Positions 14,313 to 61,042 of a stretch of 64,000 bases of DNA are shown here, piece by piece (position 1 is the first letter of the stretch; each line of letters begins with the position of its first letter). The DNA is from Cryobacterium sp. CG_9.6. Lineage in GTDB: Bacteria > Actinomycetota > Actinomycetes > Actinomycetales > Microbacteriaceae. The translations under genes were made by a program, and so were the position numbers. Where the stretch lies: assembly GCF_029893365.1 (NCBI RefSeq), contig NZ_JARXUZ010000001.1, positions 2,356,001 through 2,420,000 on the forward strand. Reading direction: 5' to 3'. The notes beneath the pieces were generated by a model that did no database searches, was not told the DNA's origin, and was given only the letters and a program-made list of their open reading frames with translations.

Positions 14313-15821
14313 TTACGCTTCCACCGTCGTGGCGCGCTCGAGCACCAGCTCGCGCACTCGAGCCGCATCGGCCTGACCACGCATCATTTTCATGACGGCG
14401 CCAATCACGGCCCCGGCAGCCTGAACCTTGCCATCGCGAATCTTCGCGAGCACGTCCGGCTGGCTCAGCAGCGCCGAGTCAATGGCCGCAATGAGCGCAC
14501 CATCATCGGAGACAACGGCCAGTCCGCGGGAAGCCACGACCTCTTCGGGCGTACCTTCCCCGGCAATCATGCCTTCAAGAACCTGGCGGGCGAGACGATC
14601 GGTAAGCGTTCCCGCCTCAACGAGAGCGATCAGCGCCGCCAGGGACGCGGGCTGCACGAGCGATTCGGCGGCTACACCGGCAACGTTTGCGAGTCGCGCC
14701 ACCTCACCGGTCCACCACTTGCGGGCGGCCTGAGCGGATGCGCCGGCGGCCACGGTCGACTCGACGGCGTCGAGCAGGTCGGAGTTGACGACATCCTGAA
14801 ATTCGAGGTTCGCAAAGCCCCAGTCGGCCTGCAAACGCTTGCGTCGGGCTGCGGGGGGCTCGGGCAGCGTCAGTCGCAGCTCTTCGACCCATTCCCGGGA
14901 CGGTGCCATCGGCACCAGATCTGGTTCCGGAAAGTAGCGGTAGTCGTCGGCGTCACTCTTGGGGCGACCGGCCGAGGTGACACCGGTGTCTTCGTGCCAG
15001 TGGCGGGTCTCCTGCGTGATGCTTCCACCGCCGTTCAGCACGGCGGCATGGCGCTGAATTTCGTAGCGCACCGCGCGCTCGACTGAACGCAGGGAGTTCA
15101 CGTTCTTGGTCTCCGTGCGGGTGCCGAGTATTCCGGAGCCGCGCAGGCGCAGGGACACGTTCGCGTCACAGCGCACGTTGCCCTCCTCCATGCGTGCGTT
15201 GGACACGCCGAGGGCCTTGACGATCTCGCGAATGGCGGCAACGTAGGTCTTGCCGATCTCGGGGGCGTCGTGTTCGGCACCCTCGATCATCTGCGTCACG
15301 ATCTCCACCAGGGGTACGCCACCGCGGTTGTAGTCCACGAGGGAATAGTCGGCGCCCTGAATGCGACCGGTCGAGCCACCCACGTGGGTGAGCTTTCCGG
15401 CGTCATCCTCCATGTGAGCGCGCTCGATCTGCACCGTGACCTGGCGACCGCTTTCGAGCTCAATCGTGATTGCACCGTCGTGGCAGATCGGGTCGTCATA
15501 CTGGCTGGTCTGAAAGTTCTTTGCGGTGTCGGGGTAGAAATAGTTCTTGCGGGCAAACCGCGAGTGCTCGGCAATCTCGCAACCCAGGGCAAGACCCAGG
15601 CGGATGCTGGACTCGATCGCCTTCTGGTTCACCTGCGGCAAGCCGCCCGGCAGGCCGAGGCAGGTGGGGCAGGTGTTCGTGTTGGCGCCCGAGCCGAATT
15701 CGTTGGCGCAGCCGCAGAACATCTTGGTCTTGGTGTTGAGCTCCACGTGTACTTCGAAGCCGAGTACCGGCTCGTACAGTTCGAGGGCCTTGTCGTAGTC
15801 CATCAGTTCGGCTTTCGCCAT
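14313..15821 (-). CDS. gatB: Aspartyl/glutamyl-tRNA(Asn/Gln) amidotransferase subunit B
   Basis: A 502-residue GatB. It opens [30 protein letters not shown] and has the paired cysteines CGC and CPTC of the zinc site ([18 protein letters not shown]) and the kinase-like core GVPLVEIVT. The C-terminal YqeY-like helical domain binds tRNA. It activates misacylated Glu-tRNA(Gln) or Asp-tRNA(Asn) before amide transfer. The gene starts one base into the gatA stop, giving a gatC-gatA-gatB operon. Confidence 0.97.
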
Positions 15822-17359
15822 TAGAGAGCTCCCTTGGTGCTGGTGGCGAGAGTGAGCGCCGGTGCCTGATCGAGCATGGTGTGACCCCAGCGGGCTTCGA
15901 GCAGCTGTTCGATGGCTGCTCCCACCGTGTAGAGGCGAGCATCCGCCTTGGCGGGAGCCATGATCTGCAGGCCAACGGGCAAACCGTCTTCCGGTGCGAG
16001 ACCGATGGGCAGGCTCATGCCGGGCACGCCCGCGAGGTTCGCCGGGATGGTGGTGATGTCGTTGAGGTACATGGCCATGGGGTCTTCGAGCTTCTCGCCA
16101 AATTTGAACGCCGTGGTGGGAGCGCTCGGGGACACGAGCACGTCAACCTGGGCGAAGGCAGCGTCAAAGTCACGCTGAATCAGGGTGCGCACCTTCTGGG
16201 CACTCCCGTAGTAAGCGTCGTAGTAGCCGGTGCTGAGCGCGTAGGTGCCGAGAATGATGCGGCGCTTGACCTCGGGGCCGAAGCCGGCCTCACGCGTGGC
16301 GGCCATGACCTTTTCGCTGGTGAGCGATCCCTCGTTCGGGTTCACGCGGATGCCGAAACGCACGGAGTCAAACCGTGCCAGGTTGCTCGACGCCTCGGCC
16401 GGCAGAATCAGATAGTAGGCGGCGACGGCGTACTCGAAGTTCGGAGCAGACACCTCCACGATCTCGGCGCCGGCTGCGGCCAGCAGCGCGAGCGTCTCGG
16501 TGAAGCGTTGCGTGACGCCGGCCTGGAAACCGGAGCCGGACAGCTGCGTGATCACTCCGACGCGGAGTCCTTTGAGGGCACCGTCGGCGAGTCCCGCGCG
16601 GGCGGCATCCGCCATCGAAGGCCACGCATCGGTGAGTGATGTGGAGTCGAGCGGGTCGTGCCCGCCGATCACATCGTGCAGCAGTGCCGCGTCGTAGACG
16701 GTGCGTGAGACCGGGCCAACCTGGTCCAGGGAGGAGGCAAGCGCAATGGCACCGTAACGGGACACTCCACCGTAGGTGGGCTTGACGCCCACCGACCCGG
16801 TGACGGCTGCAGGCTGACGAATCGACCCACCGGTGTCGCTTCCGAGAGCGAGCGGCGCTTCGAACGCGCTCACCGCAGCGGCAGAGCCACCGCCGGATCC
16901 ACCGGGAATGCGATCGCGGTCCCACGGGTTGCGCGTGGGACCATACGCGGAGTGCTCGGTGGAGGAACCCATGGCGAATTCATCCATGTTGGTCTTACCG
17001 AGCGGCACGAGGCCGGCGGCGCGCAGACGCGCCACGACGGTGGCATCGTAGGGCGGAACCCAGCCCTCGAGAATTCTGGACCCGGCCGTTGTGGGCATGT
17101 CGTGGGTGGCGAGCACGTCCTTGATGGCAATGGGCACCCCGGCTAGCGGGCCCAGCTCCTCGCCCGCTGCACGCTGTGCATCAATGCGGGCAGCGGTGGC
17201 AAGTGCCGCCGGCCCGGACACGTGCAGGAAGGCGTGCAGGTCGGTGTCCACCTCGCTGATCCGGTCAAGGTGTGCCTGGGTGGCTTCGACGGCGCTGACG
17301 GAACCGTCAGTGAGCAGTGTGCTGAGGTCAGCGGCCGAGAGCCTGATGAGATCTGTCAC
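15821..17359 (-). CDS. gatA: Aspartyl/glutamyl-tRNA(Asn/Gln) amidotransferase subunit A
   Basis: A 512-residue amidase-signature enzyme. The catalytic Lys is in VPIAIKDV (near 80). The Gly/Ser-rich signature around [12 protein letters not shown] through [11 protein letters not shown] carries the cis-Ser and nucleophile Ser. It releases ammonia from glutamine for the GatB reaction. The start is two bases after the gatC stop. Confidence 0.97.
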
Positions 17360-52753: not shown

Positions 52754-54553
52754 GTGAACTCAGCCAGCGATCACGAGCCCCAGCCACCGACGCCACCCAC
52801 GCCACCCACGCTTGTGAAGTTTGACTCACGTGTCGTTCAGCTCTTCCTCAATCAGGAACAGAACACAAATTACGCTAATTCCGTCGCTTCCCTCGAGCAC
52901 CACGAGAATCTCGACAAGGTCCTCAGCCGAATGGTCTCGTTTGCCTGTCGCCTCGCCAAAGCGAAATATGGCGCGCTGGCCGTCGCTGACAGCGACGGAT
53001 CCCTCATTCGCTTCATCTCCGTTGGGATGGATGCTGAAACGGAGGAAGCGATCGGTGTGCGTCCCCACGGGCGAGGAGTAATCGGCATGCTCGTGCGGAA
53101 TCCACAAACACGACGCATCAACAATGTTGCCGCATCCCCCGAATTTGAAGGGTTTCCGCCTCACCACCCACCTATCTCAACGCTGATGAGCTTTCCCGTC
53201 GCCATTCGAGACGTGCCCTTCGGAACTCTGTTCGTGGCGGAGAAGCTCGGTGGAGACGATTTCAGCGCCGAGGACGAGGACCTCGTGGGCGCTCTGGCGA
53301 GAGAAACAGGAGTGTCAGTCGAAAACGCCCTCCTGTTTGATGACGCCCAGCGTCGAACGCACTGGTTGAGAGCCTGTGCGGAGTTGGCGCGAGATCTGCT
53401 CGAGCCCTCCTCCAGCGGGGCCGGTGGCGGTGTCGCTTTGCAGGCTGTGGCCGAACGAGCCCGACGGGAGTCAGGGGCCGACTTTGCGTCGATCGGCTTA
53501 CCGACGCCTGACCTCAGCCACGTCTACTTTGCCGCAGCATCGGGTGCGGGTGCGGACACCATGCTGCGACAGCTCGTCGAGCTCCACCCCCAGGTTCTCG
53601 CCCATCTTCGGTCCTCTGGTGAGCATCTGGCCCTGCCCTCACTGACCGACGTGCTGGTGCCGTCCACAATGGTCGATTCAACCCAACTGTCGATTTTCGG
53701 AACGACCCTGATTACGCCGCTCGGACCCCCGGCAGACGCACGAGGTCTCCTCATCCTCTCCCGCACCGCGGGACGCGGCGCTTTCAACCCGACCGACATG
53801 GAAATGGTGGACGTCTTCGGCTCGTATGTGACGCTTGCTCTCGAACTTGCCGGAATTCATCGTCTGCGTCAGCGTCGGGCAGTGCTGGGCGACCGAGACA
53901 GAATCGCCATGAACCTGCACGACCGGATCATGCAACGGATCTTCGCCACCGGCCTGAGCCTTCAGAGTCTCAGACGGTTCACCGAAAATCCGGCTGCTCT
54001 CGAGCTCATCTCCGCGATCACGAAGGAACTCGATGCAACCCTCCACGAACTTCGAGACACGATTTACGAACTACAAAACCTGTCCGCCGAACAGTCAAGC
54101 GTCCACAGCCGAATCTTGGCCGCGATTCGGAAGTCCACAAACGCAATTCCCATCACGTCCAGCATCCACTTGGTTGGTCTCACCGATGAGTCCATCGACG
54201 AGGCACTCTTGGATGACATTCTGGCGGTTATTTCCGAAGGTGTGAGCAACGTGGCGCGTCATTCGGGCGCCACATCAGTAGAGGCCTCGGTTAAGATCGA
54301 ACGCGGTCGAATTACGGTGCTCATCGCAGATAATGGTCATGGAATCACCGACACCGTGCGACACAGCGGGCTGGACAACCTGCGAAAACGGGCCCAGAAC
54401 TATCACGGACGATTCAGCGTAACGAGCAAACCAGATCGTGGGACGCGTTTGCTTTGGTCGGCTCCGATTACGTCGCCGGTCACGTCGCCGGTCTCCTCGC
54501 CGGTCTCGGTGCCTTCCCCGGGGATTCCGGATCAGGATATGCCTGCGACGTAA
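52754..54553 (+). CDS. DosS/DosT-like sensor histidine kinase (first paralogue)
   Basis: A 599-residue kinase from GTG 52754 (GAGG eight bases upstream). A Pro/Thr-rich N-terminus leads into GAF-A (about 50-195), which contains GFPPHHPP at 133-140, the region that in mycobacterial DosS/DosT holds the heme-ligand His. GAF-B spans about 225-370. The HisKA_3 phospho-acceptor is His389 (MNLHDRIMQRIF). The HATPase has EGVSNVARHSGATSV (N box), DNGHGI (G1) and GLDNLRKRA. There is no membrane helix. The last residues are a Ser/Pro repeat encoded over the 3' end of the response-regulator gene. It probably senses O2, NO or redox and phosphorylates the adjacent DosR-like regulator. Confidence 0.9.
   Translation: MNSASDHEPQPPTPPTPPTLVKFDSRVVQLFLNQEQNTNYANSVASLEHHENLDKVLSRMVSFACRLAKAKYGALAVADSDGSLIRFISVGMDAETEEAIGVRPHGRGVIGMLVRNPQTRRINNVAASPEFEGFPPHHPPISTLMSFPVAIRDVPFGTLFVAEKLGGDDFSAEDEDLVGALARETGVSVENALLFDDAQRRTHWLRACAELARDLLEPSSSGAGGGVALQAVAERARRESGADFASIGLPTPDLSHVYFAAASGAGADTMLRQLVELHPQVLAHLRSSGEHLALPSLTDVLVPSTMVDSTQLSIFGTTLITPLGPPADARGLLILSRTAGRGAFNPTDMEMVDVFGSYVTLALELAGIHRLRQRRAVLGDRDRIAMNLHDRIMQRIFATGLSLQSLRRFTENPAALELISAITKELDATLHELRDTIYELQNLSAEQSSVHSRILAAIRKSTNAIPITSSIHLVGLTDESIDEALLDDILAVISEGVSNVARHSGATSVEASVKIERGRITVLIADNGHGITDTVRHSGLDNLRKRAQNYHGRFSVTSKPDRGTRLLWSAPITSPVTSPVSSPVSVPSPGIPDQDMPAT
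54470..54505. repeat. Three 12-bp tandem repeats in the HK/RR overlap
   Basis: Units ACGTCGCCGGTC, ACGTCGCCGGTC and TCCTCGCCGGTC are followed by a degenerate fourth copy. They encode Thr/Ser-Ser-Pro-Val repeats of the kinase tail and, on the other strand, reach the end of the regulator gene. Confidence 0.85.
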
Positions 54554-55190
54554 CGAAGACGGCGGCTTGAGTGCGACGCTGGAAGCCCAGCTTGCCCAGG
54601 AGGGACGACACGTAGTTCTTCACCGTTTTCTCGGACAGGAACATGGCCTCGGCGATCTGCCGATTCGAATACCCCTCTCCGATCAGGGCAAGACACCGCT
54701 CTTCCTGACCCGTCAACGGCACCATTCGGTTGTCTCGGGCGACAGGATCCACGAGGCCCTCAAGAATCTTCGACCGATCGCGGTCGGAAAAAAGCGACTC
54801 CCCCGCGGCCGCTCGGCGTATGTCTTCGAGCAGATCGGTGCTGCCGATTTCTTTCAGCAGGTACCCCGCTGCTCCGGCCAGGACGGCGCCACGGACTGCT
54901 TTTTCGTCGTCGTAGCTTGTCAGGATGAGGCACTGAAGCGTGGGATCGATGCTGCGCACATCGCGGCACACCTCGATGCCCGTCCCGTCGGGAAGGCGGC
55001 CGTCGAGAATCGACACATCGGGATGAAGGTCAATGATGCGGCTCGTGGCTTCCACGGCGGAACCGCTCGCACCGACGACCTCAAATCCCTCACGTTCCAG
55101 GAGATCCCGGAGGCCCCGTCTCACCAGCTCGTGGTCATCCAGAATAAAGACACGGGTATGTGGGGTCAGTGACTCGTCGGGAGTGTTCAT
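54480..55190 (-). CDS. DosR/DevR-like response regulator (NarL/LuxR family)
   Basis: A 236-residue regulator from ATG 55190 (MNTPDESLTPHTRV). Receiver: ILDDHELVRRG (acidic pocket), phospho-Asp63 in SILDGRLPDGTG, LILTSYDDEKAV and GYLLKEI (Lys). C-terminal LuxR helix-turn-helix: GYSNRQIAEAMFLSEKTVKNYVSSLLGKLGFQRRTQAAVF. As far as I recall, the recognition helix EKTVKNYVS is the same as in M. tuberculosis DosR. It should therefore bind the same GGGACT-type box. The C-terminus is extended by a Pro-rich tail that overlaps the kinase gene by 74 bp, tail to tail. Upstream lies the IS-interrupted DosR-like box. Confidence 0.92.
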   Translation of the reverse strand: MNTPDESLTPHTRVFILDDHELVRRGLRDLLEREGFEVVGASGSAVEATSRIIDLHPDVSILDGRLPDGTGIEVCRDVRSIDPTLQCLILTSYDDEKAVRGAVLAGAAGYLLKEIGSTDLLEDIRRAAAGESLFSDRDRSKILEGLVDPVARDNRMVPLTGQEERCLALIGEGYSNRQIAEAMFLSEKTVKNYVSSLLGKLGFQRRTQAAVFVTSQAYPDPESPGKAPRPARRPAT

Positions 55191-55363
55191 CGCGTTCTCC
55201 AGCTCATAGCTCCGAAAGGTGAGTAGGCCCTCAGCGCCTCGCCGACACGGCGCCAATTCTCTGTTGCGTCCTATTTTGTCTCCAGGTAGCCGGCCACGCT
55301 AGGGCTCGGCGGCAGGAGTTTCGTAGATTCCGCCGCTACCGCCGCGCATAGTCCTGCATGGCC

Positions 55364-55377
55364 GAGACCAAAGGCCT
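55364..55377. promoter_or_regulatory. Weak upstream DosR-box-like site
   Basis: GAGACCAAAGGCCT matches 10 of 14 positions of the DosR core GGGACTWWAGTCCC. It begins 23 bp before the stronger interrupted box, a spacing close to the 22 bp seen between the two proximal boxes at the second promoter. Confidence 0.4.
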
Positions 55378-55386
55378 TCCGAGTAG

Positions 55387-55396
55387 GGGAACTAAG
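55387..55396. promoter_or_regulatory. Left part of a DosR-like box split by the IS element
   Basis: GGGAACTAAG here is joined, after removing the element and one target duplicate, to TCCC at 57051-57054. The restored site GGGAACTAAGTCCC matches 12 of 14 positions of GGGACTWWAGTCCC. Its centre would lie about 42 bases before the predicted transcription start, the usual DosR activator position. Confidence 0.6.
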
Positions 55397-55412
55397 CCTC
55401 GATCCACCGGTC
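55397..55412. repeat. Left terminal inverted repeat of the IS
   Basis: CCTCGATCCACCGGTC, the exact reverse complement of 57030-57045. Confidence 0.93.
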
Positions 55413-55516
55413 GAGTTAGGGTCGTAGCGGCGCGTTAAACAGAGAATGCCACTCGGATCAGGAAAAATAGAACTTACTTAGGGTTCATTTCAACCGATTC
55501 GAGAGGCATCTCGTAG

Positions 55517-56911
55517 ATGCAACTTTTCCACAGTTCCAGCCGCTTGTCAGCCACCTTCGATGACACGAATCTCGTGTCGGCCGCGGGGCTTGTCCCCGCG
55601 ATGGCGTTGGCGGTGAAAACCGGGCTCAGCGACCTCGCCGATGCATGGCTGACCTTGCCGGGGTACTTCGGCGCGAACTCGGGGTTGAAAGTCACCGCGT
55701 TGGTCGCGGGGATGCTCGCTGGTGCCGATTCGATCGATGACATGGCGTTGCTGCGGCACGGCGGTATGAAGAAACTCTTCGTCGGGACGTATGCCCCGTC
55801 GACGTTGGGGTCGTTCCTGCGGTCGTTCACGTTTGGTCACGTCCGGCAGCTGGACGCCGTCGCCTGGCGGTGGCTGGTCAACGTCGCCGCACACACCCCG
55901 ATCGTGGCGGGCATCGACGACTATGCCCTTGTGGACATCGACGACACGATCAAGGAAGTCCACGGATATCAGAAGCAAGGCTCCGGTTACGGCTACTCCG
56001 GAGTGCGCGGCTTGAACGCTCTGATCGGCATCGTCTCCACACCCCAGGCGGCACCGATCATCGTCGGCTCCCGGCTGCGGAAAGGCGCGGCAGGTTCCCC
56101 GCGCGGCGCGGGAAAGTTCGTCGGGGATGTCCTCGCCACCGTGAAACGCCTCCGCAGCCAGACGGCCACCGGCCTCGTGCTGCTGCGCGCGGACAGCGCG
56201 TTCTATGGGCACGCGGTCGTCGCCGCCGCGCACCGGGCTGGCGCAAAAGTGTCCATCACGGCACGCATGGACCCGGCCGTTAAGCGCGCCATCGGCACGA
56301 TCACCGATGACCAATGGACGACCATCAACTACACCGATGCGATCCGGGACGAGGCCACCGGCGCGTGGATATCGTCCGCCGAGGTCGCGGAAGTCGTGTT
56401 CACCGCGTTCAGCTCGCGCAAGAAGGCCGAACGCATCGTGGGGCGCCTGGTCGTGCGCCGGATCCCGGAACTGAATCAGAAGGCGACCGAAGGGCAGCCG
56501 ACCCTGTTTGACACGCATCGGTTTCATGCGTTCTTCACCACCAGCGACCTGGACACTGTCACCGCGGACCAGACCCACCGGCAGCACGCCATCATCGAGC
56601 AGATTAACGCCGACCTTAAGGACAGCGCGCTGGCGCACCTGCCATCAGGTGTGTTCACGGCCAACGCGGCCTGGCTCGTGCTGGCCACGATCGCCTTCAA
56701 CCTTTCGCGCGCCGTTGGTTCGCTGGCCGGCAGCGATCTCGGCAAGGCACGCAGCGGCACCATTCGTCGCAAACTCATCAGCATCCCCGCCCGCATCTCC
56801 ACCTCGGCACGCAGGATCACCCTGCACCTCCCCGCCAACTGGCCATGGAAACCCGGATGGACGACCGCGTTCGCGGCGGCCTGCGGCCCGCCGCAAACCG
56901 CCACCACCTAA
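55517..56911 (+). CDS. IS1380-family transposase
   Basis: A 464-residue DDE transposase. The catalytic triad is visible as VDIDDTIKEVHGY (first Asp), LLRADSAFYGHAVV (second Asp) and AIIEQINADLKDSALAHLPSG (Glu, with the IS1380-type spacing). FAANAAWL-like and ATIAFNLSRAVG segments complete the C-terminal RNase H part. Length and frame are intact, so the element could be active. Its codon use is slightly GC-richer than the flanking sensor genes, in keeping with recent acquisition. Confidence 0.94.
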   Translation: MQLFHSSSRLSATFDDTNLVSAAGLVPAMALAVKTGLSDLADAWLTLPGYFGANSGLKVTALVAGMLAGADSIDDMALLRHGGMKKLFVGTYAPSTLGSFLRSFTFGHVRQLDAVAWRWLVNVAAHTPIVAGIDDYALVDIDDTIKEVHGYQKQGSGYGYSGVRGLNALIGIVSTPQAAPIIVGSRLRKGAAGSPRGAGKFVGDVLATVKRLRSQTATGLVLLRADSAFYGHAVVAAAHRAGAKVSITARMDPAVKRAIGTITDDQWTTINYTDAIRDEATGAWISSAEVAEVVFTAFSSRKKAERIVGRLVVRRIPELNQKATEGQPTLFDTHRFHAFFTTSDLDTVTADQTHRQHAIIEQINADLKDSALAHLPSGVFTANAAWLVLATIAFNLSRAVGSLAGSDLGKARSGTIRRKLISIPARISTSARRITLHLPANWPWKPGWTTAFAAACGPPQTATT

Positions 56912-57029
56912 CCACCAGCCACCCGGCGAACGAAGACTTGGAACACCACCGGCAGCAAGGTCGGCAGCCTCGCCCTGCCCGCCACCAAAAACCACGATCT
57001 GAATTCAGTGACGCCGATCAGTCAAGGCA

Positions 57030-57045
57030 GACCGGTGGATCGAGG
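57030..57045. repeat. Right terminal inverted repeat of the IS
   Basis: GACCGGTGGATCGAGG, the exact reverse complement of the left end, followed by the target duplicate CTAAG. Confidence 0.93.
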
Positions 57046-57050
57046 CTAAG

Positions 57051-57092
57051 TCCCTAGTGCCCTCGGGTTGCCCCGCCTACTTTTAATACATG
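57051..57092 (+). promoter_or_regulatory. Promoter copy 1: right part of DosR-like box plus shared core
   Basis: TCCC (57051-57054) is the remaining part of the split box. Four bases later comes GCCCTCGGGTT (57059-57069), then after four bases CGCCTACTTTTAATA (57074-57088). The same blocks with the same gaps recur at 59671-59721. TACTTT is six bases before an ATG at 57090. The core promoter is intact, but the activator site now abuts the IS. Confidence 0.6.
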
Positions 57093-57122
57093 AGCTCGGA
57101 GGCCCGAAACCACACCGAGTGA
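57090..57122 (+). CDS. Possible 10-codon leader peptide
   Basis: ATG at 57090 begins MSSEARNHTE followed by TGA. It starts exactly at the predicted transcription start of promoter copy 1 (leaderless spacing). It could be a leader peptide or a remnant of a longer gene; the next 113 bases to 57235 hold no ORF I can support. Confidence 0.25.
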   Translation: MSSEARNHTE

Positions 57123-57223
57123 CGCAGTACCTCGACGTCTGACCACGCGCCCTACAGTGGGGTCAGTCGCCGAGGTACCGTATCACTCGGTGGCGGGGTC
57201 GAACAATCTCCGCACTACTCCCG

Positions 57224-57229
57224 TACGAT
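57224..57229 (+). promoter_or_regulatory. -10 element, leaderless start of the nitroreductase-like gene
   Basis: TACGAT sits six bases before the ATG at 57236, and no ribosome site precedes it. The gene therefore can be transcribed independently of the IS-disturbed promoter upstream. Confidence 0.45.
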
Positions 57230-57235
57230 CGGTGC

Positions 57236-57676
57236 ATGACGATTCGCACGGAGCTCACAGACCTCGGTATGCGCGCGATGAACGGCATCCACCGCAGCAT
57301 TCTGCGGCTGTCCGGTGGGCGTCTGGGCTGGACCATTGGGACGATGCCTGCTGTGGAGCTACACACCACGGGCCGCACAAGCGGCGAGCGCCGTTCGACG
57401 ATGCTGACCGCTCCCGTTCACGGAGAGGGCCGGTACGTGCTCGTGGCGTCCAAGGGCGGGGACGACCGGCAGCCCAACTGGTACCTCAACCTCGTGGCAG
57501 AGCCCAACGTTGAGCTCACCATCAAGGACGACACGCTTCTGATGCGGGCACGCACGGCCACCCCGCAAGAGAAGGCCGAATTGTGGCCACGAATCACGGC
57601 CGCTTACCCGGGCTATCGCGCATATCAGCAGAAGACGAGCCGGGATATTCCGGTTGTCATCTGCGAGCCGCGCTGA
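57236..57676 (+). CDS. Deazaflavin (F420)-dependent nitroreductase-family protein
   Basis: A 146-residue split beta-barrel protein of the Ddn/DUF385 type. Motifs are LRLSGGRLGWTIG, PAVELHTTGRTSGERRSTMLTAP, YVLVASKGGDDRQPNWYLNLVAEPNVEL, and a C-terminal YPGYRAYQQKTSRDIPVVICEPR. Family members use F420H2 or FMN to reduce quinones and nitro compounds. In mycobacteria nitroreductase-like genes are common DosR targets, which fits the setting. It is followed 188 bp later by the second sensor kinase. Confidence 0.88.
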   Translation: MTIRTELTDLGMRAMNGIHRSILRLSGGRLGWTIGTMPAVELHTTGRTSGERRSTMLTAPVHGEGRYVLVASKGGDDRQPNWYLNLVAEPNVELTIKDDTLLMRARTATPQEKAELWPRITAAYPGYRAYQQKTSRDIPVVICEPR

Positions 57677-57864
57677 CCGCTCCCGGCCCGCTCGCGGCCG
57701 TCAGCGTCTGGCTTCGTGGGAGCAGGCACCGTGCGTTTCACGCCTTGTCGGGCCACGGTATCCGTGGCATGCTAGCTGCAGCCACCGATGTGTCGAGCGT
57801 AAACGACGCAAAAGAGGTGAACGACGCACATGAGGAGCTCCCCCAGCCACGTGGAGGTTGTTCG

Positions 57865-59568
57865 ATGAGTAGCGACCCCGAATCCGGAGCCCTCGCGCCC
57901 CCCTCCGTGGCTGGTCACCACGGCCAGACACCCTACGGTCAGTGGCGGTCCAACGCTCAGCTTGAATCCTTGGTGACCCGAGCGCAACACGAGAGTCTCG
58001 ATGCTGTCCTGAGACGAATAATCGCGTTTGCATGTCGCATGACGAACGCCAGGTATGGCGCGATCGGGGTCGTCGACGATAAGAATTCTCTGATTCAGTT
58101 CGTCCAAGTTGGAGTGGATGCCGAGACCGAGCGCGAGATAGGGTCTCCGCCCTCGGGTATCGGGATCCTGGGCATGCTCAACCGGCATGCCGCAGCACTT
58201 CGCCTGCATGACTGTAAGGATTCGCCAGAATTTACGGGATTCCCTCCCCACCACCCCGTTATGACAACGCTAATGAGCGTTCCCATTTTGGTGGACAACG
58301 TGCACTTCGGCAACCTGTATCTGACCAATAAAGAGGGCGGTGCAGACTTCACTCAGGCGGACGAGGAGCTCGTCGTTGGATTCTCGAGGGACATTGGAAT
58401 CACCGTGGAGAACGCCCTCGTGTCCGAGGATTCTCACCGACGCGCGCGCTGGCTCATTGCGTGCGCAGACCTGGCTCAGGACCTTATCAAACCCTCCACG
58501 GAGGGAGGAGGGGACTCCCTCCACACCGTGGCTGAACGGGCGATGCGGGAGTCGGGGGCGGATCTTGTGGCAATCGGCTTACCGACACCGGAGTCCGGGA
58601 TGGTGTACTGCGCGGCCGCGTCGGGTGACGGTGCCGGAGCCATCCTGCTGCGGAAGATCGCAATCCAGCCCGAGCTGATCGAGACCTTCAGCGATAACCG
58701 CCAGGCCATACTGCTGGGTTCTCTGAATGATGTCTTCCTGACACCAGAACCCAGGAATGCGTTGCGCCGAGCGCTGTACGGCACCACCTTGGTGGCACCT
58801 CTACAATCCGCTGCAGAAAACCGGGGCATGCTGGTTTTGGCCCGTAAGGCCGAAAATGGCACCTTTAACTCGACCGACGTGGAAATGGTGGAGGTCTACG
58901 CAACGTATGTTGCATTCGCCCTCGAGCTTGCGGGCATTCACCGGAAGCGGCAGCGCGAGGCTGTGCTGGGCGATCGCGAACGGATAGCACTGAACCTTCA
59001 CGACCTGATCATCCAGAGAATCTTCGCCATGGGAATCAGCGTTCAGAGCCTCCGACGATTCACGATGGAAGCGCCGGCGCTGGAGCTAATTTCATCGGTG
59101 ACCCACGAACTGGATGCCACCATCCACGAGCTACGCGACACCGTCTACCAACTCGAAAGCCTGTCGGCCGGGTCCGAGAGCGTCAACGGCCGCCTGCTGA
59201 GCGCAATCCAACAGGCGACCGATCCACTCGATATGGCCTCGAGCATCCGTCTCACCGGCCTGGTCGACCGATGCATCAAAGAAAACCTTGTGGTCCATGT
59301 CCTCGCGGTTCTGTCCGAAGGACTCAGCAATGTGGCACGCCATTCCGGCGCCACCTCGGTCGAGGTGTCTGTCAAGGTCGCCCGCGGTCGCATCATTGTG
59401 GTCATCGCCGACGATGGGCACGGATTCGACAATGTTGTACGGCACAGCGGTTTGGACAACCTCAGACAACGAGCCCGCAGTTGTCACGGCCGATTCACTG
59501 TCACGAGCTCACCGGGTCGCGGTACTCGCTTGGTGTGGTCGGCTCCGACTGCACTGACAGCTCCGTGA
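57865..59568 (+). CDS. DosS/DosT-like sensor histidine kinase (second paralogue)
   Basis: A 567-residue kinase from ATG 57865, with GGAGG before it; the frame is open upstream to 57583. The layout is the same as the first paralogue: GAF-A (about 35-185) with GFPPHHPV (125-132), GAF-B (about 215-360), His379 in LNLHDLIIQRIF, and HATPase with EGLSNVARHSGATSV, DDGHGF, GLDNLRQRA and GRGTRL. The two kinases are clearly similar over the full length, with long identical blocks in the catalytic part. There is no adjacent second regulator, so both probably act on the regulator at 54480-55190. Confidence 0.9.
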   Translation: MSSDPESGALAPPSVAGHHGQTPYGQWRSNAQLESLVTRAQHESLDAVLRRIIAFACRMTNARYGAIGVVDDKNSLIQFVQVGVDAETEREIGSPPSGIGILGMLNRHAAALRLHDCKDSPEFTGFPPHHPVMTTLMSVPILVDNVHFGNLYLTNKEGGADFTQADEELVVGFSRDIGITVENALVSEDSHRRARWLIACADLAQDLIKPSTEGGGDSLHTVAERAMRESGADLVAIGLPTPESGMVYCAAASGDGAGAILLRKIAIQPELIETFSDNRQAILLGSLNDVFLTPEPRNALRRALYGTTLVAPLQSAAENRGMLVLARKAENGTFNSTDVEMVEVYATYVAFALELAGIHRKRQREAVLGDRERIALNLHDLIIQRIFAMGISVQSLRRFTMEAPALELISSVTHELDATIHELRDTVYQLESLSAGSESVNGRLLSAIQQATDPLDMASSIRLTGLVDRCIKENLVVHVLAVLSEGLSNVARHSGATSVEVSVKVARGRIIVVIADDGHGFDNVVRHSGLDNLRQRARSCHGRFTVTSSPGRGTRLVWSAPTALTAP

Positions 59569-59616
59569 GGCGTGCACCTCTGCACGCCTCTTCGTTCGCG
59601 CCGAACAGTGTCATAA

Positions 59617-59630
59617 GGGACCAAAGTCAC
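59617..59630. promoter_or_regulatory. DosR-box-like site (distal, strong)
   Basis: GGGACCAAAGTCAC matches 12 of 14 positions of GGGACTWWAGTCCC. It is the best intact copy in the window, about 96 bases upstream of the predicted start of the zinc-ribbon/sigma operon. Confidence 0.6.
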
Positions 59631-59648
59631 AGTTTCTCGTGCCCAGAC

Positions 59649-59662
59649 GGGACCAAATCGCC
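59649..59662. promoter_or_regulatory. DosR-box-like site (middle)
   Basis: GGGACCAAATCGCC shares the left half with the distal box but its right half is degenerate (about 9-10 of 14). It starts 32 bp after the distal box, close to three helical turns. Confidence 0.45.
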
Positions 59663-59670
59663 GTCAGGAG

Positions 59671-59721
59671 GGTTAGAACGTCACTGTCGCCCTAGGGTTC
59701 TCACGCCTACTTTTAAATATG
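59671..59721 (+). promoter_or_regulatory. Promoter copy 2 of the zinc-ribbon/sigma operon
   Basis: A degenerate box GGTTAGAACGTCAC (8 of 14) is followed after four bases by GCCCTAGGGTT (59689-59699). After four more comes CGCCTACTTTTAAATA (59704-59719). Order and gaps equal promoter copy 1, which makes chance resemblance unlikely. A TACTTT -10 puts the start at about 59719-59720. Confidence 0.6.
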
Positions 59722-59754
59722 AGGTTATTTCAGCCTCGAAGGAGGAACTGCATC

Positions 59755-59937
59755 GTGATCATCACCTGCCCTTACTGCCACGCGCGGGCCAGGCTGGCCC
59801 CCAATCCGGCTCATACTCAATTCGATGCTCGGCCGATTTATGTGTTGTCCTGCACGGGTTGCCCCCGGACGAGCGTCCGATCTGAGCCCCGGTACCCAGC
59901 GCCCGGAAATCAGCAGCCAGTCTGGACCCACCAATGA
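59755..59937 (+). CDS. Small zinc-ribbon protein
   Basis: A 60-residue protein from GTG 59755, chosen for its AAGGAGG ribosome site nine bases upstream. An in-frame ATG at 59719 would add 12 residues and could be used from a leaderless transcript. CPYC (5-8) and CTGC (33-36) form a C-x2-C pair set typical of a zinc ribbon; the remainder is Pro/Arg-rich and probably disordered. Its stop overlaps the next ORF by ATGA. Likely a nucleic-acid- or RNA-polymerase-binding accessory, but no known family is recognised. Confidence 0.68.
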   Translation: MIITCPYCHARARLAPNPAHTQFDARPIYVLSCTGCPRTSVRSEPRYPAPGNQQPVWTHQ

Positions 59938-60107
59938 CCAGCCACCATCGCATTCCCGTCGCTGCCCATGCGCAGGCCTCCGACATCACGATCATGAACC
60001 TCGACGCTTTCCTCGACGCGCTTGGTCCGACTGACCGGACGGTTCTTGAATCTCGGTTTGGGCTGGACGGACGGGCGCCTCGGGCGCTCGCGCTGGTGTA
60101 CTCATGA
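59934..60107 (+). CDS. 57-residue micro-ORF resembling sigma factor region 4.1
   Basis: ATG at 59934 to TGA at 60105-60107. It overlaps the zinc-ribbon stop (ATGA) and the sigma-factor start (ATGA), so it is placed for coupled translation. The C-terminal half, FLDALGPTDRTVLESRFGLD, aligns without gaps to YLDALPSQERSVLVAHFGLE of the sigma factor in the next gene, i.e. the first helix of region 4. The DNA-binding helix-turn-helix that should follow is missing. It may be a decoy or chaperone for RNA polymerase beta-flap contacts, or the relic of a lost sigma gene. Confidence 0.6.
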   Translation: MTSHHRIPVAAHAQASDITIMNLDAFLDALGPTDRTVLESRFGLDGRAPRALALVYS

Positions 60108-61042
60108 CACTCACCGAATCCGCCACTCCCCACCTACGCATCTCCAGCGGACGATGCACAGTCGACGGTTTCGGCGACTACCTGCGCAAGATTGGCAGGA
60201 CACCGCTCCTCACAGCCGCGGAGGAGGTTGAGCTGGCCCAGCGGATTGAGGTTGGCCTTTGTGCCGCCGACAAACTCACACAGGTGAGCACCGACCAGGT
60301 GCTGACACGCGAATTGGAATGGCTGCACCAGGACGGGGTGCAAGCAAAAAACGAGTTCATTGAGGCCAACCTTCGTCTCGTGGTCAGCGTCGCCAAGCAT
60401 TATCACAGCTTTGGACTCTCGATTATGGACCTGGTTCAGGATGGCAACATAGGCCTCGTTCGTGCGGTTGAAAAGTTTGATTTCGCCACCGGGTTTAAGT
60501 TCTCCACCTACGCGGTCTGGTGGATTCGTCAAGCCGTACACCGCGGAATATGCGATCGGTCGCGAATGATCCGCGTTCCAACGCATACCGCGGAACAAAT
60601 CACGACTCTCATCCGCGTCGCCAGGGACCTTGAGACCGAACTCCAGCGACAAGCCACCCTTGAGGAACTCGCGGACGCGATGCTCATGAAGAAACGTGAT
60701 GTGGCCCGCCTGTTCAACTATGACCGTGAGCCGCTATCCCTTGCAACGCCGATTGGCGACGGGGAGATTTCAGAGATGATTATCGACGAGGACCGACTAG
60801 AACCGGACGACTACGCCAACGCAAAACGACAGAAGACGGACATCACCTTTTATCTCGACGCACTGCCGTCCCAAGAGCGGTCGGTACTCGTTGCTCATTT
60901 CGGTCTGGAAGGCCAGGAATCCGCCACTCTTGAACAGATTTCTCACGTCGAAGGCGTGACCAAGGCAAGAATCCGCCAACTCGAAAAGAGAGCCCTTGCT
61001 GGCATGCATGTGCCGTGCCTGAAACAGTATCTCGAGGACTGA
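60104..61042 (+). CDS. Group-2 RNA polymerase sigma-70 factor
   Basis: A 312-residue sigma factor. Region 1.2 is DYLRKIGRTPLLTAAEEVELAQRIE. Region 2 is NEFIEANLRLVVSVAKHYHSFGLSIMDLVQDGNIGLVRAVEKFDF, with 2.3/2.4 KFSTYAVWWIRQAVHRGI. Region 3 is TLEELADAMLMKKRDVARLF and region 4 is LPSQERSVLVAHFGLEGQ through TKARIRQLEKRAL. The regions are close to HrdB/SigB-type factors, but there is no long region 1.1, so it is an alternative vegetative-like factor. It is the last gene of a three-gene coupled operon behind DosR-like boxes, which suggests it relays a hypoxia/redox signal. Confidence 0.92.
   Translation: MTLTESATPHLRISSGRCTVDGFGDYLRKIGRTPLLTAAEEVELAQRIEVGLCAADKLTQVSTDQVLTRELEWLHQDGVQAKNEFIEANLRLVVSVAKHYHSFGLSIMDLVQDGNIGLVRAVEKFDFATGFKFSTYAVWWIRQAVHRGICDRSRMIRVPTHTAEQITTLIRVARDLETELQRQATLEELADAMLMKKRDVARLFNYDREPLSLATPIGDGEISEMIIDEDRLEPDDYANAKRQKTDITFYLDALPSQERSVLVAHFGLEGQESATLEQISHVEGVTKARIRQLEKRALAGMHVPCLKQYLED

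Follow-up and report, generated by a model that had tools for sequence, protein, structure and literature searches.

An accessory DosR-DosS locus with a linked group-2 sigma factor in Cryobacterium sp. CG_9.6 and a predicted cascade from DosR to group-2 sigma factors

A locus in a 64,000-nucleotide stretch of Cryobacterium sp. CG_9.6, hereafter the window (positions 2356001-2420000 of contig C1 of the source genome G000, which comprises 3.54 Mb in 2 contigs), was compared with 57 genomes of the genus and a sample of the family. G and L numbers denote genomes and loci, and positions are those of the window unless a contig or locus is named. The sequences of its genes point to an accessory two-component system of the DosR-DosS kind with a linked group-2 sigma factor. 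From left to right it carries dosS1 (plus strand), dosR (minus strand), an IS1380 insertion, ddn (plus), dosS2 (plus), a hairpin, a small open reading frame (ORF) with two CxxC motifs, a micro-ORF, and the sigma factor gene. Family and structure-database searches confirmed the regulator, the two kinases, the Ddn-type protein, and the group-2 sigma factor named in a preliminary description of this DNA; the IS1380 element, a terminator-like hairpin, and a hairpin in the ddn leader are also present and were absent from that description.

The gene dosR (54480..55190, minus strand) encodes a response regulator of the DevR/DosR type with a receiver and a LuxR-type helix-turn-helix domain, the closest solved relative of which is M. 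tuberculosis DevR (3c3w, 203.6 bits). The gene has an ATG start, and a longer frame with a TTG start extends to 55256. The receiver motifs LDGRLPDGTG and LILTSY and the recognition helix EKTVKNYVS, on which the preliminary description had relied, are all present, the helix being located by alignment with 3c3w. The gene is convergent with dosS1, with an overlap of 74 bp; a tail-to-tail overlap of dosR and dosS (4 or 101 bp) likewise occurs in L154, L155, L159, L161-L163, and L165, and is missing from L164. Two DosR-type regulators are encoded in this genome (E <= 1e-40). The second, at C1:507187, adjoins two universal stress protein (USP) genes and a metal-sensitive repressor gene, with no kinase called alongside.

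Both kinases, dosS1 (52754..54553, plus strand) and dosS2 (57865..59568, plus strand), have the expected GAF, HisKA_3, and HATPase domains, in dosS1 arranged as GAF-GAF-HisKA_3-HATPase, and their closest solved relatives are pieces of DevS and DosT. The two are 54% identical and represent a local duplication (tree support of 100/100). In an alignment of 33 DosS-like rows, in which some genes are present twice, the heme-ligand histidine (H149 position) is kept in 32, both window kinases included, the exception being from Sinomonas. DosS2 also keeps the distal tyrosine (Tyr171 of DosS, Tyr169 of DosT) and resembles DosT in having Gly in place of Glu87. DosS1 has Phe at the Tyr171 position, which is unique among the 33 rows, and Ala at the Glu87 position, where all 18 other rows that reach this far have Gly, the remaining 14 being too short. 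For DosS, the exchange Y171F has been reported to abolish the gas-specific response and to tighten the binding of O2 and CO, and E87A and E87G have been reported as binding O2 stably (PMC4082495). The conserved heme-pocket residues of the window kinases suggest O2, NO, or CO as the signal. The genome encodes three DosS-type kinases (E <= 1e-12); the third (L182 8200-10071, C1:2262247) has no dosR called alongside, and G174 and G181 carry both genes at that place (L162 and L163). A scan of genome contigs with dosS2 gave three loci, and most of its length was matched only in Sinomonas (35%), by a protein without the heme histidine.

The sigma factor gene (60104..61042, plus strand) encodes a protein of 312 amino acids in which regions 1.2, 2, 3, and 4 were found, with HrdB/SigA as the best matches in the PDB, followed by SigB. 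It is additional to a longer sigma factor of the same genome, encoded at C1:1935335 and presumably the housekeeping one, and thus fits the definition of a group-2 sigma factor with primary-like regions 1.2-4. Well-known members of this group are SigB of mycobacteria and HrdA, HrdC, and HrdD of Streptomyces. The window protein differs from these in belonging to a set of paralogues of the genus and in two neighboring residues of the region 4.2 recognition helix: Lys, where 53 other sigma factors have Arg, and Ala, where 52 of them have Glu and one has Gly. As we take these positions to be the equivalents of R584 and E585 of E. coli sigma-70, an altered reading of the -35 sequence is plausible. 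The gene forms a long branch in the sigma tree (length 1.9). Group-2 sigma genes are present in 56 of the 57 genomes of the genus; a genome has at most three paralogues that pass the cut-off, and the branches of some are very long. In L155, a short ORF (2343-2636) matches two separate pieces of a group-2 sigma factor, as a broken copy would, and a box-like site (16.4) lies at 2768. A small ORF containing SPTEWRV (L157 8511-8792, L169 78-401, and L185 8623-8868) overlaps the start of a group-2 sigma gene that is widespread in the genus by 4 bp and is possibly a partner of that sigma factor; its copy in L185 has no Pfam match.

Immediately upstream of the sigma gene lies the micro-ORF (59934..60107, plus strand; 57 amino acids), which is joined by ATGA overlaps at both ends. 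Its frame resembles coding sequence (codon score of +0.06 per codon, as compared with -0.37 and -0.47 for the alternative frames), in agreement with the preliminary description. The product is weakly similar to sigma region 4.1 (TIGR02997, E=0.003; 43-52% over 27-30 amino acids): the stretch LDALGPTDRTVLESRFGLDG resembles the first part of region 4 and ends before the DNA-binding helix, so that a helix-turn-helix is lacking. A search of 5.8 billion proteins that required shared 5-residue words returned only the micro-protein itself, and it may thus be either what is left of a sigma gene or a protein of recent origin. Two CxxC motifs mark the small ORF at 59755..59937 (plus strand; 60 amino acids, GTG start), which had been described as a zinc ribbon protein. 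A ribosome-binding site precedes it, but its codon score of -0.26 is no better than that of the other frames and makes its coding status doubtful; no homologue was found in the same type of word-based search. The coupled three-gene operon of the preliminary description is in this way reduced: the ATGA overlaps argue for the unit of micro-ORF and sigma gene, whereas the first ORF may not be a gene. An ATGA at a possible sigma start occurs in 37 of 47 loci, many of the upstream frames being only 0-26 codons long, and is hence weak evidence for coupling. A terminator-like hairpin (59567..59590, plus strand; 10-bp stem, z -4.2) lies where dosS2 ends, and the sigma operon is therefore likely to be transcribed separately from dosS2; a simple terminator scan lists no site at 59567-59590.

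A promoter-like element of 28 nucleotides is shared by the two units of the locus. One copy (57059..57086, plus strand) lies upstream of ddn-dosS2 and the other (59689..59716, plus strand), identical in 24 of 28 positions, upstream of the sigma operon. Its exact 13-nucleotide core, CGCCTACTTTTAA, occurs in the genome at these two places only (57074 and 59704). With two mismatches allowed, 18 matches were obtained versus 28 in the control, which is no enrichment, and the best other context among these 18 agrees at 18 of 24 fixed positions. Since the 28-nucleotide element is common to both, a single factor, either DosR or the sigma factor itself, probably controls ddn-dosS2 as well as the sigma operon.

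Across the genus, a common box, GGGACYTTNGGCCCTA, is found upstream of dosR, USP, and adh genes (the Usp and ADH domains were checked on four genes). The mycobacterial DosR box consists of two GGGAC-like halves four bases apart, and the genus box resembles it in this layout. Several simpler patterns had been tried. The mycobacterial palindrome consensus GGGACYWWWRGTCNC, with one mismatch allowed, gave 0 matches in the window; a loose GGGACC pattern occurred 129 times in the genome versus 191 times in a backwards control; and GGGACYANNGNYC occurred 33 times versus 34 in such a control, 8 of the 33 matches forming four pairs, 468 bases apart within each. A GGGACT pair with this spacing is found at C1 73216, 798969, 1545561, and 3252982 and probably belongs to a repeated element. 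As the two latter patterns were not enriched and the first had no matches, a matrix trained on the genus was adopted. It covers 17 nucleotides and 33 distinct sites; its seed, applied in 37 dosR, USP, or adh loci, was a consensus derived by inspection of a few loci. The training sites score at least 11.8, with a median of 21.9. A strong box, GGGACCTTTGGCCCTGT (22.5), is found in L154 at 2387 and in L155 at 4111, where no gene is called close downstream on the same strand.

When the matrix was run over the 450 bp in front of each sigma gene and a further 20 bp (60 loci given, 59 with a called sigma gene, L046 having none), a single site of at least 12 was obtained. This site, GGGTCCTTAGGCCCTAG (19.1), lies 33-49 bp before the ATG of the sigma gene C1:275698-276585; the next best sites score 11.5, 9.9, and 9.4. 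Gene starts came from a simple caller, contig ends shorten some of the upstream regions (in L056 nothing is left), and the scan is blind to sites more than 450 bp upstream, the palindrome of the window itself included. A score of at least 19.1 is expected 1.9e-4 times per 450-bp region at the base composition of the window. In the sigma tree this gene groups (100/99) with relatives in G174 and G181, which carry the boxes GGGACGTTAGACCCTAC (20.1) and GGGACGTTAGGCCCTAT (22.1) in the same aligned place, their called starts being further downstream. The box is thus present in all three members of the group, the loci of which (L166-L168) had been left out of matrix training. When the three upstream regions are aligned, conservation covers the box and continues to an aligned ATG; G000 differs elsewhere upstream, and the upstream DNA of G174 and G181 is alike beyond the box too. 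Among 13 sigma loci compared, the box is found in the three of this group, and the other 10 all have less than 12 before the sigma gene (L173 has 11.8, 317 bp away). With at most two mismatches, the box consensus has 5 sites in the genome versus 31 in the backwards control. The sole site with one mismatch is the box directly before the sigma gene at C1:275698; two others lie in a USP-USP intergenic region (21.9) and at the second dosR (20.5), both scoring above 19.1 in the matrix, and of the remaining two, one lies beside a gene for an IclR-type regulator.

A second kind of connection between DosR and group-2 sigma factors was found in G172 and G201. In both, the order is sigma (minus strand), dosR (plus), dosS (minus), such that dosR and a group-2 sigma gene are neighbors transcribed away from each other, with about 500-560 bp between them, depending on the starts chosen. 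The intervening gap of G172 has two box-like sites, one of 13.7 towards sigma and one of 15.5 towards dosR, the latter value being partly circular as its region, L098, was in the training set; the gap of G201 has one site of 11.1. The DosR proteins of these two genomes group with that of the window (98/92); their major branch holds 26 further rows, from which this group is separate. Outside the genus, no dosR, dosS, or ddn was found in the flanks (up to 1.5 kb) of 26 of the 27 family sigma loci, the 27th being L046 with no called sigma gene.

At the window locus itself, a candidate DosR palindrome, GGGACCAAAGTCAC (GGGAC-N4-GTCAC; 59617..59630, no strand assigned), precedes the sigma operon. 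It reads GGGAC-CAAA-GTCAC and matches 9 of 10 half-site positions, and GTGAC half-sites occur in good boxes of relatives. When the 186-bp intergenic region that holds it was shuffled by dinucleotides, 18 of 2000 shuffles contained a match of this quality, as did 4 of 687 overlapping tiles of the window. A second GGGACC half-site (59649..59654, plus strand), read from the sequence 32 bp from the first, has no partner half. It is the position before the sigma operon, not its rarity, that favors GGGACCAAAGTCAC, and this is suggestive, not strong. The several DosR-box-like palindromes of the preliminary description were therefore overstated: no window site falls in the range of the genus box, and one imperfect palindrome is weakly supported.

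The gene identities, the conserved heme ligands, the recurring linkage, the conserved box at C1:275698, and the shared element can be combined into a predicted cascade, considered moderately probable, in which an accessory DosR-DosS system commands a group-2 sigma factor and DosR and group-2 sigma factors are wired together in the genus. DosS1 and DosS2, as heme-GAF kinases, would most likely sense the loss of O2, and DosS2 might also tell CO and NO from O2. Both would phosphorylate DosR, which would bind at the window locus and switch on ddn-dosS2 and the micro-ORF-sigma unit there. Within the genus, regulators of this type would have become connected to group-2 sigma factors more than once, by an upstream box (C1:275698) or by gene linkage (in the window and in G172 and G201). 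The sigma factor, if active, would then steer RNA polymerase towards further genes as a second tier, and a short DosR regulon would become a cascade. The earlier proposal that DosR-type signaling raises an alternative sigma factor thus gains partial support: the box at C1:275698 and the linkage in G172 and G201 make it probable that such signaling reaches a group-2 sigma factor in this genome, but the window locus has no box of genus strength. DosR control of the window sigma operon itself would follow from gene linkage, one imperfect palindrome, and the element shared with ddn-dosS2.

Several observations count against this cascade. No site in the window reaches 11.8; the best scores 11.7 and is intragenic, and the reversed window has three sites of at least 12. 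The best intergenic site, at 59614-59630 before the sigma operon, scores 5.4, as compared with the training minimum of 11.8. The pattern GGGACNNNNGTCCC, with one mismatch, occurs twice in the whole window versus 5.7 times in shuffles, which is no more than chance would give, and the degenerate form GKGACNNNNGTCMC once versus 0.63. The strongest sigma-linked box lies about 2.1 Mb away, at a different sigma gene. Adjacency of dosR and sigma is rare: besides the window locus, 55 DosR loci were checked within flanks of up to 1.5 kb, 29 of them drawn from the 53 remaining matches in the genus and 26 from the family beyond it, and only the two in G172 and G201 show it. The window DosR is itself a long branch (0.96), and the tree program flags the placement of long rows as unsure. 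The window sigma factor as an orthologue of the linked sigma factors of G172 and G201 is neither demonstrated nor rejected (approximately unbiased test, p 0.285). The long branches of dosR, dosS1, dosS2, and sigma, together with the IS1380 insertion, would also fit a drifting locus.

The shared element can be read in another way, namely that the window sigma factor is not under DosR but itself reads the element at 57059 and 59689, driving its own operon and ddn-dosS2 and feeding the kinase back. The confinement of the exact core to those two places in the genome is in line with this, and the two region 4.2 substitutions, absent from 53 other sigma factors, would suit an unusual -35 sequence. 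However, the element shows no clear -35/-10 layout, a generic search for sigma-70 promoters found none there, and DosR is equally possible as the factor common to both promoters, so this alternative is regarded as tentative and on the unlikely side. The same region could also represent a decaying accessory locus with duplicated kinases, an orphan sigma gene, and gene remnants, the micro-ORF being a sigma leftover, that has been drifting after the IS1380 insertion. That five large genes are open throughout and that the heme histidine, the DosR motifs, and both 28-nucleotide copies are kept makes decay distinctly unlikely, in spite of the insertion, the long branches of dosR, the kinases, and sigma, the codon scores of 0.155-0.198 per codon (below most of the 57 called window genes), the micro-ORF and CxxC ORF for which no homologues were found, and a truncated sigma fragment in a relative.

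An ordinary DosR locus with the sigma gene as a neighbor by chance would agree with the low count of adjacencies (2 of 55) and with the abundance of group-2 sigma genes in the genus (56 of 57 genomes). It is considered quite improbable, given that the sole other adjacencies fall in the group nearest to the window DosR and that a conserved DosR box precedes another sigma gene. The predicted cascade from DosR to group-2 sigma factors can also be extended into a gas-to-sigma switch, which we hold to be speculative and, as a whole, unlikely. DosS1, with a pocket like that of Y171F/E87A, would be shut off by any gas and DosS2, like DosT, by O2, and both would act on one DosR. The sigma factor with its altered -35 reading would recognize a private element on its own operon and on ddn-dosS2, and the micro-protein would tune it at RNA polymerase; together with the sigma factor of C1:275698, DosR would then command a cascade instead of a fixed regulon.

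The locus is reminiscent of DosS-DosT/DosR of M. tuberculosis in its closest solved relatives, the heme histidine of GAF-A, the combination of two kinases with one regulator, and a Ddn-type reductase. It differs from it in the linked group-2 sigma gene of the window, and this genome differs further in the DosR box before another group-2 sigma gene. DosR is reported to control the initial hypoxic response of M. tuberculosis, and SigE and SigH to be induced in the later Enduring Hypoxic Response (PMC2198943); SigB and SigE have been placed under MprAB (reference cited in PMC11203133). S. coelicolor has OsdK/OsdR, with a DosR orthologue, USP genes, and predicted boxes such as CGGGACCTTCGGCCCT, which is close to the genus box GGGACYTTNGGCCCTA; SCO0038, a sigma factor gene, is listed with an in silico predicted site at -130 in the parts of that report consulted, where no linked group-2 sigma factor is described (PMC5069765). 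The titles and abstract openings listed in the literature searches gave no report of a group-2 sigma factor within a DosR regulon. The predicted cascade from DosR to group-2 sigma factors would thus be a new variation on the DosR theme. If true, a DosR box on a group-2 sigma gene would join two hypoxic tiers, low oxygen might re-aim the transcription machinery of the cell through a DosR-linked sigma factor, and the cascade would be testable outside tubercle bacilli. DosS1 and DosS2, moreover, are a natural paralogue pair differing at two heme-pocket residues used in the mutational work on DosS.

The gene ddn (57236..57676, plus strand) encodes a Ddn-type F420H2-dependent quinone/nitro-reductase (PF04075, 1.7e-36; best PDB match 3r5l, Ddn). 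The genome carries a gene for CofD (187.6 bits) with an adjoining CofC-like gene (27.9 bits, cut-off 22), and a further neighbor looks like FbiB/CofE. As the CofD and CofC-like genes are present, F420 is probably made in this organism and the Ddn-type enzyme could work. Between the shared element and the ddn start codon lies a long inverted repeat or hairpin in the ddn leader (57113..57192, plus strand; arms of 32 nucleotides, 84% complementary, z -4.5), for which an attenuator and a mobile-element remnant are candidate readings. The IS1380-family insertion (about 55388..57054, plus strand) sits between dosR and ddn, has terminal inverted repeats of 25 nucleotides (55388-55412 and 57030-57054), and encodes a transposase at 55517-56911 (family match of 345 bits). 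No clear target duplication was seen in the flanks inspected, and a comparison with plasmids gave no match. A further IS1380 copy, with 97.7% identity across 1656 bp, is present in L166 at 14316-15971 (about 282.3-284.0 kb on C1 of G000).

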